Shown here: piece after piece, positions 1,179 to 27,661 of the stretch
How the letters are laid out: each line of letters starts with the position of its first letter
Position numbering within the stretch: the first letter of the stretch is position 1
IMG/VR virus record: IMGVR_UViG_3300048121_000416
Coordinates: 1-34,877 of that record
Strand: one strand, 5' to 3'
Source: a virus
DNA length: 34,877 nucleotides
The notes under the pieces: generated by a model
What the model was told of the DNA's origin: nothing
The model's input: the letters and a program-made list of their open reading frames with translations, nothing else
The model's database searches: none
Translations under genes and position numbers: made by a program

Positions 1179-1474
1179 GCGTTTCTCCCTTTACGCTTCT
1201 TGAGGTTTCTCTTGGTATTAGCTGAGTTACACTTCTTACATATATAGTTCTTCTTAGCCACGGTACTCTTCGCCCAGTTGTCTCCCTCTACTAACACCAC
1301 GCCACAGTGATTACAATTCCTAATGCGTTTCCGACCAGTTGTCTCCGACTTGGTACTCACCTGCGAGGGGACAATTAAGTTTATAATAAATGCCCGCGGC
1401 TTCGATACAAGACACTGCCAAGCGTCCGAAAACATCTGCTTCACTTTCTTTAACTTCTGTTTGAATTTCATCAT
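1175..1474 (-). CDS. Zinc-ribbon protein overlapping the end of DNA polymerase; start uncertain
   Basis: The C-terminal half is a clear small zinc-binding domain: CNHCG (residues 54-58), NWAKSTVAKKNYIC, then CKKC and a Lys/Arg-rich tail ending RKGRNA. Stand-alone proteins of this shape occur beside phage DNA polymerases and look like an HNH- or recombination-endonuclease-VII-like zinc half, though no catalytic HNH residues are visible. The stop overlaps the next ATG (ATGA), which supports a real gene. The start is the problem. The only ATG (1,474, preceded by AGGAAA) lies 155 bp inside the polymerase gene and adds about 50 residues of unconserved-looking sequence, while nearer the zinc domain only GTG or ATT codons exist. 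The domain is well supported; the N-terminus is not. Confidence 0.6.
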   Translation of the reverse strand: MMKFKQKLKKVKQMFSDAWQCLVSKPRAFIINLIVPSQVSTKSETTGRKRIRNCNHCGVVLVEGDNWAKSTVAKKNYICKKCNSANTKRNLKKRKGRNA

Positions 1475-3041
1475 GTATATTTCCTATAAATTTATAATCT
1501 AAGTTCCAAGCCTTAGCGTACTCGTCCAGTAAACATAATGCCTTCTTCATAACGATTGCACCTGCTGACTGTAACAGCGTGTTTAATGCCGCGTGTTCTG
1601 AGCGTACTGCGACTCTGCGCCTGTCCAATCCGTGAACATAACCTCTTCCAGATGCCACGCTAACTCTTTCTCGTAGGTCTCTAAGAGATGGCGTGTTTGA
1701 GAGGAACTTCTTCTTAAGTCTTCTACCATCAACAGCAGTTCCTCCAACGATACTTCCGATTTTTGCGTCCCCTGCTCCATACAAGAACGCATATATGAAA
1801 GTCTTTGCCTGACTTCGTGTGTCAACACCGCTAGCAAGTTGGTTTGCTGTATGAATGTCTCCAGTGAGTATTTCATTTGTATATCCCTCATCGTTCATAT
1901 AATGTGCAAGCATACGTAACTCAAGTCCTGATGCGTCCATACCAACAATCTTGTAGCCTTTAGGTGATGTCCAACAGGCTCTACAATCTGCTCCGTATGG
2001 TGCGCCTGAACTAGGCACTTGTGCTACGTTAGGACTAGAGTGTGTCATACGTCCCGTTACTGCACCGTTAGAATTTACATATCCATGTACACGACCATCG
2101 TCCTCAACAGCATCTAACCATGACTGTACCTGTGCTATACGCTTCTGAACCATTAGGTACTCAGCAATCATATTAGCTTCTGGTATATTAGTTACCTTAG
2201 ATAAGATAGCTTCATCAACAATGGCTTGACCCTTCTCTGTAAACTTCTTAGGCTTCCAACCAAAGTATTGTAAGTATCTACCTATCTGCTGTCTTGAACC
2301 TAAGTTAAACTCTGGGTAATCAACACGACTAAATGGTGCTATATAGTCTGACCAACTGTCCCCTAGAAACTTAAGACCAACCACGGACATCGTACCGTCC
2401 TTCTTGTACTTAGGTGTTATCTCCTTAATGAATGTAGGTAACGGTTTAAATGTTTCATGTACCTTATCTTCGAGGTCGTACTTCTTTTCCTTAAGTTTAG
2501 CAAGTAAAACAAAAGCGTGTTCTTGGTCTAGTAACCAACCGTTGTCCGTTTGTTTTGTGATAATGCTTTGTACTTGATGCTCAAGGCTAATGCTTTCGCT
2601 TCCAAAACCTGCCAGTACACTTCGTAGCGCGTTGTACACTTTGACATTAACCAGTACATCTTGCTTGCAATAGTCCACCATATCCTGAGAAAATGTATTC
2701 CAATCACTGTGTTCTCCTTTAGGGAAACCTAACTGCTGTCCCCAGTTATCTAATGAATGACCACCTTCACGCGATGGTTCAGTGAGTCTTGACAATACTA
2801 ATGTATCTGTAATCTTACAACTACTAAAGTCTGTGCCTAGTAAGCGTTCAAGAACTGGTACGTCATAGCCAATGATGTTGTGACCAATGACCTCAGCATC
2901 TTTGATATAAGCATTGAAGTCCTGTAACGTATCGCCAGAGAATACAGTCATCTCTTGGTTTGATAGGTCACAAGCAACGATTACCCAGACCTTTGTAGGC
3001 TGTAGACCGTTAGCTTCTATATCAAATACTATCTGCTTCAC
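1320..3041 (-). CDS. Family A DNA polymerase with 3'-5' exonuclease (T7 gp5-like)
   Basis: The replicative polymerase, 573 residues. The exonuclease domain shows FDIEANG (D7, E9), HNIIGYD (N55, D60) and YCKQD (Y124, D128). The polymerase domain shows motif A GMDASGLELRMLAH (D369), motif B around R409, K413 and Y417 ending FLYGAGD, and motif C IHDE (H523-E525). Y417 sits at the position of E. coli Pol I F762 and T7 Y526. The protein is shorter than T7 gp5 (704), and the thumb region near 195-255 has no room for the T7 thioredoxin-binding loop, so processivity may depend on something else (inference). It starts with GTG at 3,041, one base into the helicase stop (TAGTG), with AGGAG seven bases upstream. 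This supports coupled translation with the helicase. Confidence 0.97.
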   Translation of the reverse strand: MKQIVFDIEANGLQPTKVWVIVACDLSNQEMTVFSGDTLQDFNAYIKDAEVIGHNIIGYDVPVLERLLGTDFSSCKITDTLVLSRLTEPSREGGHSLDNWGQQLGFPKGEHSDWNTFSQDMVDYCKQDVLVNVKVYNALRSVLAGFGSESISLEHQVQSIITKQTDNGWLLDQEHAFVLLAKLKEKKYDLEDKVHETFKPLPTFIKEITPKYKKDGTMSVVGLKFLGDSWSDYIAPFSRVDYPEFNLGSRQQIGRYLQYFGWKPKKFTEKGQAIVDEAILSKVTNIPEANMIAEYLMVQKRIAQVQSWLDAVEDDGRVHGYVNSNGAVTGRMTHSSPNVAQVPSSGAPYGADCRACWTSPKGYKIVGMDASGLELRMLAHYMNDEGYTNEILTGDIHTANQLASGVDTRSQAKTFIYAFLYGAGDAKIGSIVGGTAVDGRRLKKKFLSNTPSLRDLRERVSVASGRGYVHGLDRRRVAVRSEHAALNTLLQSAGAIVMKKALCLLDEYAKAWNLDYKFIGNIHDEIQTEVKESEADVFGRLAVSCIEAAGIYYKLNCPLAGEYQVGDNWSETH

Positions 3042-4660
3042 TAGAACTCCTGATTGTCATCATTAACTGGACACGTAGTTTCAATCATACGTCCAGTATC
3101 TTTGTCGTAGTAGAGGTAGCAAGCCGCCCCTGTAAGTCCCGCATAACGGTTCTTGAGTACCCTGACCGTGGTGGTGTTGCGTACCTGTGGGTCTTTGTTC
3201 TGTTGGTCACGTTCCAAACCAATCACCATGTCGGATAGCTGTGCGATTGCCGCTGAACCTCGTAACTCAGCCAAGCTAATCTGTCCACCGTCCTCATGTG
3301 CCTTCCCTGATGGTCTGCGTAAGTGTGACACCAAGAACAACCCAACACCTGTTTCCTGTACCAACTGTCTCAGCTTGGTCATGATGCTGTCAATGGCTTT
3401 ACGTTCGTCACCGTTCTCTTGGTCACTAACAACAATACTCAAGTGGTCTAGGATAATCCATTTACAGTCAAGACCTTTAGCCATGTACCTAATACGACTT
3501 AGTAGGTTATCCTCATTGGTAGAACCCCAGTGGTCAAACATATAGATACGTCCTGTGCCTAATGTCTTGTCCCAGAATACCTTTTTATCTTCCCTGCTAA
3601 ACTCTCGGCTCAGATGTAGAGTCTGGTTAGCCTCAATGCTCATAATCCCTAGAGCAGTCTTAGGTATATCTTCCTCTAGCGCAAGTATGCCAATGTTGTC
3701 GTTAGTCGCACCTAGTAAGTAGTGTTCCAACTCTCTGACAATCTGTGACTTACCCATACCTGAGCCACTGGTAATCGTAACCAGTTCCTTTTCCCTAAAG
3801 CCATAAGTAAACTCATTAAGACACTGCCAAGGATACGGAATGGACTTAATATCTTCCTGAGCAACAATTGACTCCCAAGTATCACTACCTGCAATAATAC
3901 CATCAGGACGATAAGTTTTAGCATTCCACCACTCCTTTATAAACCCTTGTACGTTACGTTCCTTCAGCATTTCACCCGCATCCTTGACAGGTAACTTTAC
4001 GTTCTTCGCTTTGTTGGGTGTAAATAAATCTAACACCGCGCGAGATGCTTCCTGACCCGCATTGTCACTGTCGAAACAAATGACTACGTTCTCGAATGAT
4101 TCAAGCCACTCCAAGTTCTGCTTGATGTCCTTGACTGCTCCTGATGCGCCTGACCGTATTGACACAACTGCCCACTTACCGTCAAACATTTCCGACACCG
4201 CTAAGGCATCAGCTTCTCCCTCTACTACTGTTATGTATTTACCACCACCTTTGAATGCTTGCTGACCAAACAGACCTGCATTGTCAAATGTACCGCTTGC
4301 ATAGAATGCTTTGTTATCTACTATGCGAGACTTAGTACCTATCTGTGCGCCTGTGTCCTTGTCAAAGTATGGGTAGTGGTGCTTGCTTATAGTCCCTGCT
4401 GTGTCGTACTCAACAGTAACACCAAACTTCTTACAAGTTGCCTCTGTGATACGTCTGTCGGGGATTGATGCTATAACACCTGTCATCTCTAATTTCCTGT
4501 TCGCTTTAGGTTTGCTTTGTACAACCTCACCGTTGCCTCTCTCGTAGTGGTCACAACCGCCTGTAAAACAAACGGCGTGACCATCGGAGTACCTCGCGAG
4601 ATTGTTCTTAGAGCCACACGATGGGCATGGCTCATGTCTAACAAAATGCGAGTCAGTCAT
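3041..4660 (-). CDS. Bifunctional primase-helicase (T7 gp4-like)
   Basis: The protein has 539 residues; T7 gp4 has 566. In order: an N-terminal primase zinc finger (C12, C15, C31, C36), a Toprim domain with VVEGEADALA (E147) and CFDSDNAG (D197, D199), and a RecA-like DnaB helicase domain with Walker A SGSGMGKS (299-305), a catalytic glutamate segment LALEED near 327-331 and Walker B WIILDHLS (D405). The tail DDNQEF is acidic and ends in Phe, like the gp4 tail that binds the polymerase. It unwinds the fork and makes primers. The ATG shares a base with the SSB stop (TAATG). All key residues are present. Confidence 0.97.
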   Translation of the reverse strand: MTDSHFVRHEPCPSCGSKNNLARYSDGHAVCFTGGCDHYERGNGEVVQSKPKANRKLEMTGVIASIPDRRITEATCKKFGVTVEYDTAGTISKHHYPYFDKDTGAQIGTKSRIVDNKAFYASGTFDNAGLFGQQAFKGGGKYITVVEGEADALAVSEMFDGKWAVVSIRSGASGAVKDIKQNLEWLESFENVVICFDSDNAGQEASRAVLDLFTPNKAKNVKLPVKDAGEMLKERNVQGFIKEWWNAKTYRPDGIIAGSDTWESIVAQEDIKSIPYPWQCLNEFTYGFREKELVTITSGSGMGKSQIVRELEHYLLGATNDNIGILALEEDIPKTALGIMSIEANQTLHLSREFSREDKKVFWDKTLGTGRIYMFDHWGSTNEDNLLSRIRYMAKGLDCKWIILDHLSIVVSDQENGDERKAIDSIMTKLRQLVQETGVGLFLVSHLRRPSGKAHEDGGQISLAELRGSAAIAQLSDMVIGLERDQQNKDPQVRNTTTVRVLKNRYAGLTGAACYLYYDKDTGRMIETTCPVNDDNQEF

Positions 4661-5028
4661 TAGAAGTCCGAGCCTCCCTCGGTAGCTTCCGCTAGTTCTA
4701 GCACCTTAATGGCTGACAAGTAAGTTGACGTTCCGTGTACTGGGTGAGGTTTACCTTCTGCGTACTTAACACGTACCTTAGAACCTCTGGTTAATCGACC
4801 ACTAAACTCATTACCATCTGCATCAAACATGGGTACATCATATTTAGTGCTAAACTTACGCTGTGCTGTTCCCTCATACTCGCGTAGTTTGACACCCTGA
4901 TTGGCTAGTTTATCTGCATCAGCAGGTTCTAGCGACAATACCAATGAGTATTTCCCAGTTGATTGACCCTGATATTCTTCGTGTTCGTCAAGGTTAGCGA
5001 ACGCTACATTTCCTTCTAATACTGCCAT
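4660..5028 (-). CDS. Single-stranded DNA-binding protein (T7 gp2.5-like)
   Basis: This 122-residue protein opens MAVLEGNVAFANLDEHEEYQ, has an OB-fold-like run of alternating beta segments, and ends in a short acidic tail EATEGGSDF with a terminal phenylalanine. T7 gp2.5 uses the same tail design to contact polymerase and helicase. It is shorter than gp2.5 (232 residues) and similar in size to the compact SSB-like proteins of marine phages. It is first in the replication block and has its own promoter just upstream, so SSB, helicase and polymerase can be made together. Position, length and tail support the call; the overall sequence match is from memory of the family. Confidence 0.83.
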   Translation of the reverse strand: MAVLEGNVAFANLDEHEEYQGQSTGKYSLVLSLEPADADKLANQGVKLREYEGTAQRKFSTKYDVPMFDADGNEFSGRLTRGSKVRVKYAEGKPHPVHGTSTYLSAIKVLELAEATEGGSDF

Positions 5029-8632: not shown

Positions 8633-8660
8633 ATTATAGTCAATAGCATTATATTGTCAA
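8633..8660 (-). promoter_or_regulatory. Leftward early promoter, consensus sigma-70
   Basis: TTGACA at 8,660-8,655, 16 bases, then TATAAT at 8,638-8,633 on the minus strand; both hexamers are perfect. It drives the 100-residue gene and presumably the early cluster. An inverted-repeat site (8,672-8,695) ends 11 bases upstream of the -35 hexamer. Confidence 0.85.
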
Positions 8661-8671
8661 CACCTAAAGAG

Positions 8672-8695
8672 TGACCAATAAACTAATTGTGGTCA
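8672..8695. promoter_or_regulatory. TGACC-N14-GGTCA site 1
   Basis: Inverted repeat with 14 bases between the arms (arms extend to TGACCA/TGGTCA). It is centred about 57 bases upstream of the leftward start, a typical activator distance. Confidence 0.6.
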
Positions 8696-8830
8696 TACTA
8701 TATTACAACCTTTATATACAGGCGCGTGCGTGCGTATAACATAACTGGTTGAGGTTGTCAAGTGTTTATTCTTGGGTATGTCTATAGGTATCCCCTAGCA
8801 TACTCACACTTCACCCTCAAGTATTCCTTG

Positions 8831-8854
8831 TGACCGCCTTGAGTATCCTGGTCA
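8831..8854. promoter_or_regulatory. TGACC-N14-GGTCA site 2
   Basis: Same arms and the same 14-base gap; here the arms extend to GTGACC/GGTCAC. It lies immediately next to the first DnaA-type box. Confidence 0.6.
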
Positions 8855-8855
8855 C

Positions 8856-8916
8856 TGTGGATTACCTGTGGATAACTCCTGTGCCTGTGGATAACTTGTG
8901 GAAAGCCTGTGGATAA
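8856..8916 (-). other. Cluster of DnaA boxes, putative replication origin
   Basis: TTATCCACA (minus-strand reading; TGTGGATAA on the plus strand) occurs perfectly at 8,867-8,875, 8,886-8,894 and 8,908-8,916. Near matches TGTGGATTA at 8,856-8,864 and TGTGGAAAG at 8,897-8,905 lie in the same orientation. Starts are 11, 19, 11 and 11 bp apart, so most lie on one face of the helix. This is the arrangement of a host-type origin or DnaA-binding array. AT-rich DNA suited to unwinding lies from about 8,970 on. Confidence 0.72.
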
Positions 8917-8918
8917 CA

Positions 8919-8938
8919 GGGGGCGGGGGGTGCGTGGG
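8919..8938 (+). other. G-rich block beside the DnaA boxes
   Basis: Runs of five, six and three guanines on the plus strand within 20 bp, starkly unlike the AT-rich surroundings. A two-tetrad quadruplex is possible; a stable three-tetrad one is not clearly available. Confidence 0.45.
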
Positions 8939-8977
8939 TGGCGTGAGATTGTTACGGTACCCGCTCGTATACAAAAA

Positions 8978-9001
8978 AAGCCAATATTCAATAAAAGGTC
9001 A
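8978..9001. promoter_or_regulatory. Degenerate fourth inverted-repeat site
   Basis: AAGCC-N14-GGTCA. The right arm is exact, the left arm keeps only CC, and the interior resembles site 3 (CCAATAT shared). Confidence 0.4.
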
Positions 9002-9063: not shown

Positions 9064-9087
9064 TGACCAATATAATAAAAAAGGTCA
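9064..9087. promoter_or_regulatory. TGACC-N14-GGTCA site 3
   Basis: Exact arms with the same 14-base gap, about 55 bases upstream of the -35 hexamer of the rightward promoter. Its right arm runs into ACTTAAGT. Confidence 0.6.
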
Positions 9088-9142: not shown

Positions 9143-9171
9143 TTGACATTTAATCTAAAGTATGGTATAAT
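9143..9171 (+). promoter_or_regulatory. Rightward late promoter, consensus sigma-70
   Basis: TTGACA at 9,143-9,148, exactly 17 bases, TATAAT at 9,166-9,171. It drives the terminase and structural genes; the leader to 9,307 is about 130 bases and holds repeated CTTAAG and TATACTTTAA elements. Confidence 0.88.
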
Positions 9172-9199
9172 ATATTTATAATATAGAGTAATTTAAAGC

Positions 9200-9215
9200 C
9201 TTAAGTATACTTAAG
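9200..9215. promoter_or_regulatory. CTTAAGTATACTTAAG perfect palindrome
   Basis: A 16-bp perfect palindrome in the leader of the rightward transcript. Further CTTAAG hexamers lie at 9,035, 9,088, 9,282 and 9,292, and TATACTTTAA occurs twice between 9,230 and 9,255. This suggests an operator cluster. Confidence 0.55.
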
Positions 9216-9306
9216 TAGTCTTAGTTATTATACTTTAATGATTATACTTTAAAGTTAAATACTAAAGCGTTCCTAAGTATTCTTAAGATAACTTAAGGAG
9301 AGTCCA

Positions 9307-9708
9307 TTGGACAATGATAAAGCTACTCCGAAAAGGAGAAGGGGCAGACCACCGAAGTCAGAGATGGTGTCAAGAAAGAAAGGTCAGACTGGTTTGTCAA
9401 GGGGTCGCCCGAAGGGTGATGCCGCTATCATCAACGAGTACAAAGGTAGGATGTTGTCATCTCCTAAGTCTCGTAAAGTATTAGAATCAATATTCGATGC
9501 GGCACTTAACGATGACCATAAGAATCAAGCCGCCGCGTGGAAGTTAGTCATGGATAGGATATTACCTACAGCGGTATTTGAGAATGATGTCGTTAAGGGT
9601 GCAGGTAAGTCAGCAATACAGATAAACATTACTGGAGTTGGTGGAGCAGAGACCACGGTGGTGTCAAACGAAGGTAGTGTCATTGACGATGGGGAAATCA
9701 TAGAGTAA
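9307..9708 (+). CDS. Putative small terminase subunit / DNA-binding protein, TTG start
   Basis: 133 residues. The N-terminus has two AT-hook-like stretches (KRRRGRPPK near residue 10 and SRGRPKGD near 32), followed by a helical region with NDDHKNQAAAWKLVMDRILP and a short beta segment IQINITGV, then an acidic tail. Proteins of this form sit just before the large terminase in related phages and are usually taken as the DNA-recognition subunit; the evidence here is position plus DNA-binding character. The start is TTG at 9,307 with GGAG seven bases before it; the nearby ATG is out of frame. The stop overlaps the next ATG (TAATG). Confidence 0.65.
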   Translation: MDNDKATPKRRRGRPPKSEMVSRKKGQTGLSRGRPKGDAAIINEYKGRMLSSPKSRKVLESIFDAALNDDHKNQAAAWKLVMDRILPTAVFENDVVKGAGKSAIQINITGVGGAETTVVSNEGSVIDDGEIIE

Positions 9709-10064: not shown

Positions 10065-11318
10065 GTGACGGAACTTAATGTTTCGCTACTACCGTGGCAA
10101 CAAACTGTATTTGAAGATGAGACTAGATTTAAGGTCATAGCCGCAGGTAGACGTACAGGCAAGTCAAGGTTAGCCGCTTGGATGCTAATCATCAGGGCTT
10201 TACAGACTGAACGTGGTCATGTCTTTTACGTTGCCCCTACACAGGGTCAGGCTAGGGACATTATGTGGCAAGTCTTGATGGAGATAGGCAACCCCGTCAT
10301 AGCCTCTAGTCATGTCAATAACTTACAAATAAAGCTAGTCAATGGTGCAACCATAGCACTTAAAGGGGCAGATAGACCAGAAACCATGCGTGGTGTCAGT
10401 CTTAAGTTCCTAGTTATGGATGAGTACGCTGATATGAAACCAGAGGTCTGGGAGCAAATCCTTAGACCTGCACTAGCTGACCAAAAGGGTGAAGCACTGT
10501 TCATTGGTACGCCAATGGGTCGTAATCACTTCTATGACTTATATACATACGCTTGTGTTGCAGAGGATGAAACCTTTGTAGGTTATCACTTTACAAGCTA
10601 TGATAATCCATTGCTAGACCCTGAAGAGATTGAAGCGGCTAAGAAGTCCATGTCCGCATTTAGTTTCCGTCAGGAGTTCATGGCATCATTTGAGGCGCAG
10701 GGTAGTGAACTCTTTAAAGAAGACTACATCAAGTTTAGTGAGGAAGAACCTGAAACAGGTGGATACTATATTGCAGTCGACTTGGCAGGATTTGCTGACG
10801 TTGCTAAAGCCACAACTAAAACTAAACGACTTGACCAAACTGCCATCTCGGTTGTTAAAGCAAATGAAGAAGGTTGGTGGGTCGCTGACATTATACATGG
10901 TCGGTGGGGTGTTGAAGAGACTGCGCGTAAGATTTTTGAAGCTGTCCGTGACTATAGACCGACTGCTGTGGGAATTGAAAAAGGAGCATTGAAGAATGCT
11001 GTCCTACCGTATCTCTCAGACATAATGAAAAAGAATAATAGGTTCTTCCGTATAGATGAACTTACGCATGGTAATAAGAAAAAAACGGACAGGATTGTCT
11101 GGGCTTTACAAGGTAGGTTTGAACACGGTGCTATAACACTTAACAAGGGTAACTGGAATACAGAGTTTCTTGATGAACTATTCCAATTCCCTAATCAACT
11201 CGTACATGATGATTTAATTGACTCACTCGCCTACATAGACCAACTGGCTAACATAGCCTACACATCGGACTATGAAGAAGAAGATTACGAATACTTAGAC
11301 GCATACGCAGGGTACTAA
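10065..11318 (+). CDS. Terminase large subunit (packaging ATPase-nuclease)
   Basis: 417 residues. The ATPase domain has Walker A AAGRRTGKS (26-34) and Walker B FLVMDEYAD (D119, E120), then the coupling segment FIGTPMG (146-152). The RNase-H-like nuclease domain has IAVDLAG (D239), VGIEKG (E305) and VHDDLIDS (D382-D386). It translocates DNA into the head through the portal and cuts the concatemer. The start is GTG at 10,065, immediately after the endolysin stop, with a poor ribosome site, so coupling to the endolysin is likely. The acidic C-terminus (SDYEEEDYEYLDAYAGY) is consistent with portal docking. Confidence 0.96.
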   Translation: MTELNVSLLPWQQTVFEDETRFKVIAAGRRTGKSRLAAWMLIIRALQTERGHVFYVAPTQGQARDIMWQVLMEIGNPVIASSHVNNLQIKLVNGATIALKGADRPETMRGVSLKFLVMDEYADMKPEVWEQILRPALADQKGEALFIGTPMGRNHFYDLYTYACVAEDETFVGYHFTSYDNPLLDPEEIEAAKKSMSAFSFRQEFMASFEAQGSELFKEDYIKFSEEEPETGGYYIAVDLAGFADVAKATTKTKRLDQTAISVVKANEEGWWVADIIHGRWGVEETARKIFEAVRDYRPTAVGIEKGALKNAVLPYLSDIMKKNNRFFRIDELTHGNKKKTDRIVWALQGRFEHGAITLNKGNWNTEFLDELFQFPNQLVHDDLIDSLAYIDQLANIAYTSDYEEEDYEYLDAYAGY

Positions 11319-14236: not shown

Positions 14237-14265
14237 TTGACATTCTTAGTAAAATATGTTATAAT
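14237..14265 (+). promoter_or_regulatory. Internal consensus promoter for the capsid module
   Basis: TTGACA at 14,237-14,242, exactly 17 bases, TATAAT at 14,260-14,265. The spacer and flanks resemble the promoter at 9,143 (both have TTGACATT and TATAATAT). It points at the 84-residue gene, then scaffold and coat. Confidence 0.88.
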
Positions 14266-26033: not shown

Positions 26034-27661
26034 TGGCTCAACAACTACAAGCAGTATCTATTGTAGCACCTGCGTTTTCTGGTATTAACAATCAGGATTC
26101 GCCTACGGCTATTGATACTTCTTTTGCGGCTACGGCTAACAACTGTGTAATTGACAAGTTTGGTCGTATTGGTTCTCGTAAGGGAAGTGTTTTATTAACT
26201 GAAAGTTATAATGAAGAAATAGTAAAAACAGCTTACTTGTATAATAATCCTGTCGAGTTTATAGATGAGTTTGTGGATAATTTAGGAGTATCTACTGTTT
26301 ACTTTGCGGCAGGACAAGCAAGCGGTAGTGGTCCAAGTCATAGATATATTTACAAAAACCCTGAAAACCCTGTTAATGTAAGACCTGCGGATTACAGTCC
26401 AACAGCTAACAACTGGAAAATGGCTAGTCTTGCTAATAAAGCATACTTTTTTCAACGTGGACATGAACCTTTATCGTCTATAGGTGGTGGTGATTTAAGC
26501 GTAATAAGTGATAACCACGTACCTCAAGCTAATGAAGTTATAGCCGCATACGGTAAACTATGGGCGGCTGATGTTGCTGAAAATAAACACACAGTATATT
26601 GGTCTGATACATTACTGGGCAGTGTATGGCATGGTGGAGCATCAGGTTCTTTAGACTTGCGTACAGTATTTCCTAGTGGCTTTGACGAAGTAACTGCACT
26701 AGCGGCACACAACGGGTTTTTAATTATATTCTGTAAAGATTGTATCTTAATTTACTCTGGTGCTGAAAGCCCTGCTTCTATGGTTTTACAAGATGTTATT
26801 GAGGGTGTAGGTTGTATTGCAAGAGACTCTGTACAAAATACAGGTAGTGACATTATATTCTTGTCTAAAGACGGTGTAAGAACGCTAGGGCGTGTTATAC
26901 AAGAAAAGTCTGCACCTATGCGAGACATCAGTAAAAACATTAGAGATGAGTTAATACTTGAGGTAGGAAGACACTCAGGTCCTATTAAGTCTGTGTATAG
27001 TCCTGAAGAAGCCTTTTATGTGTTGTCGTTACCTGACGAAAACTTAGCTTATTGTTTTGACATGAGAAGTTTCCTACCTGATGGTTCAGCTAGAGTAACT
27101 ACTTGGTCCGATATAAACGCTAAGTGTTTGCTACGTAAACGTAACGGTGACATCTTGTTTGGTAAATTATTCGGTGTTTACAAATATACAGGATACAATG
27201 ACGCTTCAAGAGCAAGCGGTGGTACTGCGGGCAACCCTGCCGCCCTTGAACGTGGAACGTACACAATGAAATACGAAAGTAATTCAATGGACTTTGGTAA
27301 ACCTGCAAACATTAAGTTTTTAAAACAACTGGAAGTATCAGTAGCGGGTAACTTAGGTGAAGACTCTATATTAAGATGGTACTATGACTATGACCCTAAT
27401 ACAGAAGGTAACTTTACTATTACTCCTCCTGCATTAGAGCCTAATGAAGGCGAGTTTAATATAGGAGAGTTTACCGCGGCAGTAGGACAAACAGGATACG
27501 TGGGGACGGAATATGCTTCTGGTGTGTACATACAGACACCACACGCCAATGGTACAGGTAACGGTAGAGTTTTAACAATGGGATTGAATGCAACTATAGA
27601 TGGAAGTCCTTATTCCATACAACGAATTGATTTAAAAGTATTATTAGGGAGAACCTTATAA
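26033..27661 (+). CDS. Tail nozzle protein (tubular B / stabilisation-like)
   Basis: From the ATG at 26,033 the product is 542 residues (an earlier in-frame start lies inside the adaptor gene). N-terminus VSIVAPAFSGINNQDSPTAI, then ANNCVIDKFGRIGSRKGSVL, a propeller-like middle (AAHNGFLIIFCKDCILIYSG, IARDSVQNTGSDIIFLSKDG), and a beta-rich C-terminus. Nozzle proteins of podoviruses hold this architecture and close the tail tube. Adjacent adaptor and portal-type genes support the call. Confidence 0.85.
   Translation: MAQQLQAVSIVAPAFSGINNQDSPTAIDTSFAATANNCVIDKFGRIGSRKGSVLLTESYNEEIVKTAYLYNNPVEFIDEFVDNLGVSTVYFAAGQASGSGPSHRYIYKNPENPVNVRPADYSPTANNWKMASLANKAYFFQRGHEPLSSIGGGDLSVISDNHVPQANEVIAAYGKLWAADVAENKHTVYWSDTLLGSVWHGGASGSLDLRTVFPSGFDEVTALAAHNGFLIIFCKDCILIYSGAESPASMVLQDVIEGVGCIARDSVQNTGSDIIFLSKDGVRTLGRVIQEKSAPMRDISKNIRDELILEVGRHSGPIKSVYSPEEAFYVLSLPDENLAYCFDMRSFLPDGSARVTTWSDINAKCLLRKRNGDILFGKLFGVYKYTGYNDASRASGGTAGNPAALERGTYTMKYESNSMDFGKPANIKFLKQLEVSVAGNLGEDSILRWYYDYDPNTEGNFTITPPALEPNEGEFNIGEFTAAVGQTGYVGTEYASGVYIQTPHANGTGNGRVLTMGLNATIDGSPYSIQRIDLKVLLGRTL

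Follow-up and report, generated by a model that had tools for sequence, protein, structure and literature searches.

DnaA-box arrays in a non-coding slot of an uncultivated marine phage and its relatives and in the terminal repeats of several T7-like phages

An uncultivated marine phage, many of its relatives, and several laboratory-grown T7-like phages carry an ordered row of predicted binding sites for the host replication initiator DnaA in one particular non-coding stretch, which in the laboratory-grown phages lies at the genome end. Lytic phages of different families thus seem to recruit or tie up the host initiator at this place, a feature that is not included in standard models of T7-like phages. 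DnaA boxes or DnaA action are already known in phages P1, T5, and lambda; however, in a literature search that left out most subscription journals, no description was found of phased arrays inside the short terminal repeats of T7-like phages or in the present lineage, and no paper joined DnaA boxes with Autographiviridae. A phased array kept in one slot across a large uncultivated aquatic lineage and, apparently independently, in the terminal repeats of cultured Enterobacteriaceae phages points to a shared, overlooked use of DnaA. The cultured carriers make this question directly testable, including how terminal repeats are duplicated and whether lytic phages shut host initiation by sequestering DnaA.

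The DnaA-box array and its surroundings

The analysed stretch of DNA (the window) is an uncultivated virus record of 34,877 bases from IMG/VR. Its left arm (minus strand) carries replication genes, encoding a Cas4-like exonuclease, a family A DNA polymerase, a T7-type primase-helicase, a gp2.5-like single-strand binding protein, and GP88, whereas its right arm (plus strand) carries the presumed small terminase, a peptidase/endolysin, and the large terminase (terL), portal, capsid, and tail genes. A ribonucleotide reductase is located at the right end on the minus strand. The two ends of the window map within a few hundred bases of each other in three relatives (loci L026, L058, and L177), so the contig is nearly a full circle, short by roughly 0.4 kb. 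The main features are as follows:

1320-3041, minus strand: family A DNA polymerase
3041-4660, minus strand: T7-type primase-helicase
4660-5028, minus strand: gp2.5-like single-strand binding protein
8633-8660, minus strand: perfect sigma-70-type promoter, TTGACA-16-TATAAT, directed towards the left arm
8787-8807, plus strand: element U, GGTATCCCCTAGCATACTCAC, a degenerate direct repeat of element D; left border of the variable slot and candidate left end of a short terminal repeat (inferred)
8856-8916, minus strand: DnaA-box array, with boxes at 8856 (TAATCCACA, one mismatch), 8867 (TTATCCACA), 8886 (TTATCCACA), 8897 (CTTTCCACA, two mismatches), and 8908 (TTATCCACA)
8919-8930, plus strand: G-block GGGGGCGGGGGG, kept in close relatives with and without boxes
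8951-8980, plus strand: element D, GTTACGGTACCCGCTCGTATACAAAAAAAG; right border of the slot and candidate right end of a short terminal repeat (inferred)
9143-9171, plus strand: perfect sigma-70-type promoter, TTGACA-17-TATAAT, directed towards the presumed terS-terL
9166-9265, no strand assigned: least stable 100 bp of the genome (16% GC), candidate melting region
9307-9708, plus strand: first rightward gene, presumed small terminase by its position just before terL (no family match over the cut-off)
10065-11318, plus strand: large terminase, used as the anchor of the survey

The sequence-only reading had described three perfect boxes and two near matches in one orientation, with steps of 11, 19, 11, and 11 bp, next to AT-rich DNA and a G-rich block, and this observation is confirmed. 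All boxes read TTATCCACA on the minus strand (TGTGGATAA on the plus strand), and the G-block directly follows the array. One correction is needed: the DNA right beside the boxes is not unusually AT-rich, and the least stable 100 bp lies about 250 bp to the right in the same intergenic region. Random 34.9-kb genomes generated with a second-order Markov model contain on average 0.2 perfect boxes; among 2,000 such genomes, neither a same-strand pair within 61 bp nor a triple occurred (rough expectation 3e-9 per genome). One other perfect box, at 26272, lies alone in a gene. No Rfam match and no tRNA were found.

The two promoters diverge from the same intergenic region, and the right one is found at the same place, about 200-260 bp right of the G-block, in box-bearing and box-less relatives. 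A third perfect sigma-70-type promoter (TTGACA-17-TATAAT) lies at 14237-14265 inside the structural arm, before ORF 14336. Moreover, three imperfect 24-bp inverted repeats of the form TGACC-N14-GGTCA (8672-8695, 8831-8854, and 9064-9087) in the intergenic region are possible operators of an unknown regulator. At 9200-9300, CTTAAG-rich repeats and a long imperfect hairpin are present in the leader of the first rightward gene, with self-complementary matches also in relatives; they loosely recall the CCTAAAG repeats at T7 genome ends.

Conservation and variation of the array

Whether related phages keep the boxes and their spacing had been set beforehand as a test of the idea. Among relatives found by terminase or neighbouring proteins, arrays recur at the same place. 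In a survey chosen by terminase protein, which comprised 170 non-redundant loci with at least 1.8 kb upstream of terL, 65 loci carry three or more TTWTNCACA boxes per 120 bp upstream of terL, whereas the reversed motif, the region downstream of terL, and shuffled DNA each gave 0 of 170; chance or low complexity was therefore rejected as the source of the array. Where terL is more than 62% identical to that of the window, arrays read TGTGGATAA relative to terL (some with one or more inverted boxes); where it is less identical, all 23 read the other way. Most records contain only one array per genome, with 3-11 boxes per copy in many relatives.

A pattern scan of IMG/VR for two boxes 11 bp apart, blind to gene content, returned 119 loci, of which about 22 belong to this lineage. 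Contamination of these hits by chromosomal oriC was rejected, as no DnaA gene was found among the 25 commonest families near the arrays, which are mostly phage terminases and replication proteins. Of 113 steps between neighbouring perfect boxes, 62 are exact multiples of 11; however, some of the arrays used here came from the pattern scan, so these step counts lean towards 11, a bias from which the terminase survey is free. Imperfect units number 61 at 4 in-phase offsets against 7 at 8 off-phase offsets, and most of their changes (35, mainly C to A) affect position 5, the N of the DnaA consensus TTATNCACA (PMC5835720), which is the position that DnaA tolerates. Boxes of the same orientation separated by 2 bp give maximal cooperative DnaA binding in T. 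maritima (PMC10316083), and 2 bp is also the gap of the E. coli oriC arrays (PMC6727663).

Alignment shows a fixed frame composed of element U, a variable slot, the G-block, and element D, in which U and D are degenerate copies of each other (GGTAYCC-N-GYATAC). Box-less close relatives keep U, the G-block, and D with a shorter slot (U to D about 136-165 bp in the closest, though up to 216 bp in some), while box carriers reach 238 bp. Some box-less relatives carry unrelated short repeats in about the same place: GTGTTACCG is repeated upstream of terL in L446, L447, L450, L455, L466, and L470 (8 then 13-14 bp apart, with a 21-22-bp period) and is possibly a site of another initiator or regulator, whereas L427 and L431 contain repeated CTATGCAACTATCGTGCCAACT units, and a similar sequence, ATGCAATACCCGTGCCAAC, lies beside the boxes in L015-L027. 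The array is missing in about 60% of surveyed relatives, including close ones, among them one with a 97% identical small terminase, and box state changes at least 29 times on the terL tree (about 50 with shuffled labels). Thus, the array is accessory and is patchily gained and lost, though its site is constant, and it is not an essential origin for the family.

Arguments for a replication origin

The sequence-only reading had proposed that this T7-like phage, having no RNA polymerase, may recruit host DnaA to start replication or use the boxes to titrate DnaA; this interpretation is only partly supported. The boxes look like real DnaA sites, many relatives conserve them with their spacing, and a T7-type RNA polymerase is indeed lacking: a profile search for PF00940 gave no hit in the window and 19 other family records, although it did in a positive-control phage. 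A DnaA-like (C-terminal) domain was likewise not found in family genomes. The argument that DnaA replaces the missing RNA polymerase is not supported, as T7-like phages that do encode this enzyme carry the same kind of array (see below). Titration remains possible. Moreover, the description as T7-like holds only for the replication genes, which include the T7-type DNA polymerase, primase-helicase, and gp2.5; the terminase, portal, and capsid proteins are all under 60% identical to any of 50,697 phage records.

GC skew gives no evidence for an origin. The skew minimum seen in the window is explained by gene direction, since in relative G017 (a family genome record), with nearly all genes on one strand, the skew does not switch at the array. 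Four of the 20 family records (G017, G018, G019, and G022; loci L340, L368, L383, and L470) lack a detectable family A DNA polymerase; G017, which has an array, encodes a primase-helicase, an exonuclease, and a RuvC-like resolvase and so probably uses the host polymerase. Neither a DnaA-trio nor an IHF site lies beside the boxes; a single trio-like run (9073) is within the background frequency and is not next to them. No Rep initiator was recognised among the proteins scanned, many of the small left-arm proteins being unknown. Host assignment yielded only four MAG contigs from different phyla and was unusable.

Arrays in terminal repeats

The natural array used as a query finds cultured T7-like phages, whereas a synthetic perfect-repeat query found nothing in phages or plasmids, probably because it was masked by the low-complexity filter. 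phiEap-1 (Studiervirinae) and Kp7 (Molineuxvirinae), both with annotated RNA polymerases, have five perfect boxes inside their 195- and 238-bp direct terminal repeats, respectively, and the relatives Kp_H01 (218 bp), ZK1 (292 bp), and Shigella A7 (177 bp) likewise carry four to six. These boxes share one orientation, are often 21-22 bp apart, and occupy a compact non-coding region. In contrast to the window, where no RNA polymerase was found and the terminase lies directly right of the array, phiEap-1 and Kp7 have the large terminase in the right part of the genome. P483 and PmP19 carry the same kind of array in records opened elsewhere; T7 itself has none there. In Berlinvirus P483 (locus L547, about 2250-2400), the T7-type repeat CCTAAAG directly adjoins a DnaA box (CCTAAAGTTATCCACA), suggesting that the T7 end repeats and the boxes share a region and perhaps a history.

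In the lineage of the window, family genome G007 has an exact 221-bp terminal repeat that spans its whole seven-box array, which a random overlap would do with a probability of about 0.003. Arrays of three or more boxes lie within 250 bp of a contig end 10 times, against 3.5 expected. By analogy, U and D, about 170 bp apart, would be the borders of a short terminal repeat. However, the window contig itself shows no terminal repeat, most near-complete family contigs show none at the array and several wrap round elsewhere, and contig starts fall inside the slot rather than sharply at U; the terminal-repeat position in this phage is therefore inferred.

Possible roles of the array

The preferred, though tentative, explanation is that the cluster is an array of binding sites for host DnaA, built like a DnaA oligomerisation region, with boxes in the same orientation and mostly 2-bp gaps and, hence, 11-bp steps. 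It would lie in what is probably the concatemer junction or short direct terminal repeat (about 170 bp) of the phage. In this view, host DnaA should bind cooperatively as soon as the DNA is accessible and, most likely, help DNA synthesis start at the genome end or concatemer junction by local opening or helicase loading, with the weakest DNA of the genome 250 bp away. The presence of other repeats in about the same place in some box-less relatives is as expected of a slot for initiator-like proteins. The sequences themselves establish the array, its phasing, the DnaA-type variation, the conserved slot, the G-block, the promoters, and the occurrence of such arrays in terminal repeats of T7-like phages, whereas DnaA binding, the terminal-repeat position in this phage, and the replication role are inferred. 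Confidence that this is a selected DnaA-binding array is high when taken alone, but somewhat below even for the whole chain. The patchy distribution of the array and the absence of DnaA-trios, of an IHF site, and of a skew signal count against this explanation, and the example of P1, in which mutation of two DnaA sites at the proposed lytic origin had no significant effect on RepL-driven amplification (PMC9948254), warns against reading boxes as an origin.

Several alternatives are less likely but remain live. The boxes might mainly soak up host DnaA as phage copies multiply and thereby stop new rounds of host chromosome initiation, their position mattering little. Such an element is cheap, its patchy presence fits an optional anti-host device, and a terminal repeat would double the dose per genome; as a mioC region on a plasmid titrates about 8 DnaA monomers per copy, against about 200 per origin (PMC5835720), tens of phage genomes could deplete DnaA. 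However, a pure sink need not stay in one slot beside the G-block, one array per genome is the rule in most records, and a sink would be ineffective before the phage has replicated. Somewhat less likely is that DnaA bound at the leading genome end anchors, paces, or protects incoming DNA, as proposed for the injection stop signal of T5, an annotated region in the T5 terminal repeat that is described as holding DnaA boxes (PMC13250531). The arrays of T7-like phages do lie in about the first 200 bp of the genome, but T5 has only a few scattered boxes in its repeat, and neither the entry order in this family nor any direct evidence for DnaA acting on entry is known. It is also possible, though doubtful, that DnaA at the array tunes the flanking host-type promoters, which might, for example, be held down early and released when phage copies titrate DnaA. 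DnaA is a known transcription factor and stimulates transcription at ori-lambda (PMC8203912); however, the array is about 195 bp (left) and 227 bp (right) from the promoters, too far for simple repression, the right promoter is the same in box-less relatives, genes on both sides are on one strand in G017, and the array is at the genome end in T7-like phages.

Two further possibilities are improbable. Sites for a phage-encoded protein that happen to resemble DnaA boxes are suggested by the unrelated repeats such as GTGTTACCG, since phage-specific binders may exist there, but the same 9-mer occurs in unrelated phages of Klebsiella, Enterobacter, Proteus, and Shigella, the variation follows the DnaA consensus, and family genomes contain no DnaA-like domain. 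A cos or pac packaging site with incidental boxes is the least likely; the G-block and the U/D repeats lie just upstream of the presumed terS and are kept without boxes, yet packaging would explain these elements (and, as to them, is compatible with the preferred explanation) but not the selected box array. In particular, a cos site with fixed ends at the G-block was rejected, as near-complete contigs run through the G-block and wrap elsewhere and no single end position is seen. A broader and more speculative reading, which is unlikely on present evidence but not excluded, is that short-terminal-repeat phages from unrelated lineages have repeatedly placed phased DnaA-box arrays inside the repeat, so that host DnaA acts at the concatemer junction, for example, to start the DNA synthesis that duplicates the terminal repeat or fills genome ends, a step whose mechanism in T7-type phages is not known to have been settled.

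Comparison with other DnaA-box systems

The T5 injection stop signal (Heusterspreute 1987; Davison 2015, as cited in PMC13250531) likewise places DnaA boxes in the terminal repeat of a lytic phage, but the T5 repeat is 10 kb long, with few scattered boxes (three at 6.1-6.2 kb and one at 9.5 kb) and no phased array. The DnaA oligomerisation region and basal unwinding system of bacterial oriC share with the window same-orientation boxes with 2-bp gaps and unstable DNA in the same intergenic region; in the window, however, the unstable DNA is 250 bp away, and the arrangement of boxes next to a GC-rich stretch and DnaA-trios was not found. Iteron plasmid origins with DnaA boxes (RK2 oriV, P1, F, and pSC101; PMC4980987) also combine clustered boxes with nearby AT-rich DNA, and other direct repeats occupy about the same place in relatives of the window, but no Rep initiator was recognised here. 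The P1 lytic origin oriL has DnaA sites at a GC-skew change in a lytic replicon, but only two, located inside a gene and dispensable in a reporter assay (PMC9948254). Large arrays of 5-7 DnaA boxes were also present in other unclassified phages among the IMG/VR pattern hits (loci L139, L195, L201, L202, L207, L210, and L217), two of which (L207 and L210) lie close to contig ends.
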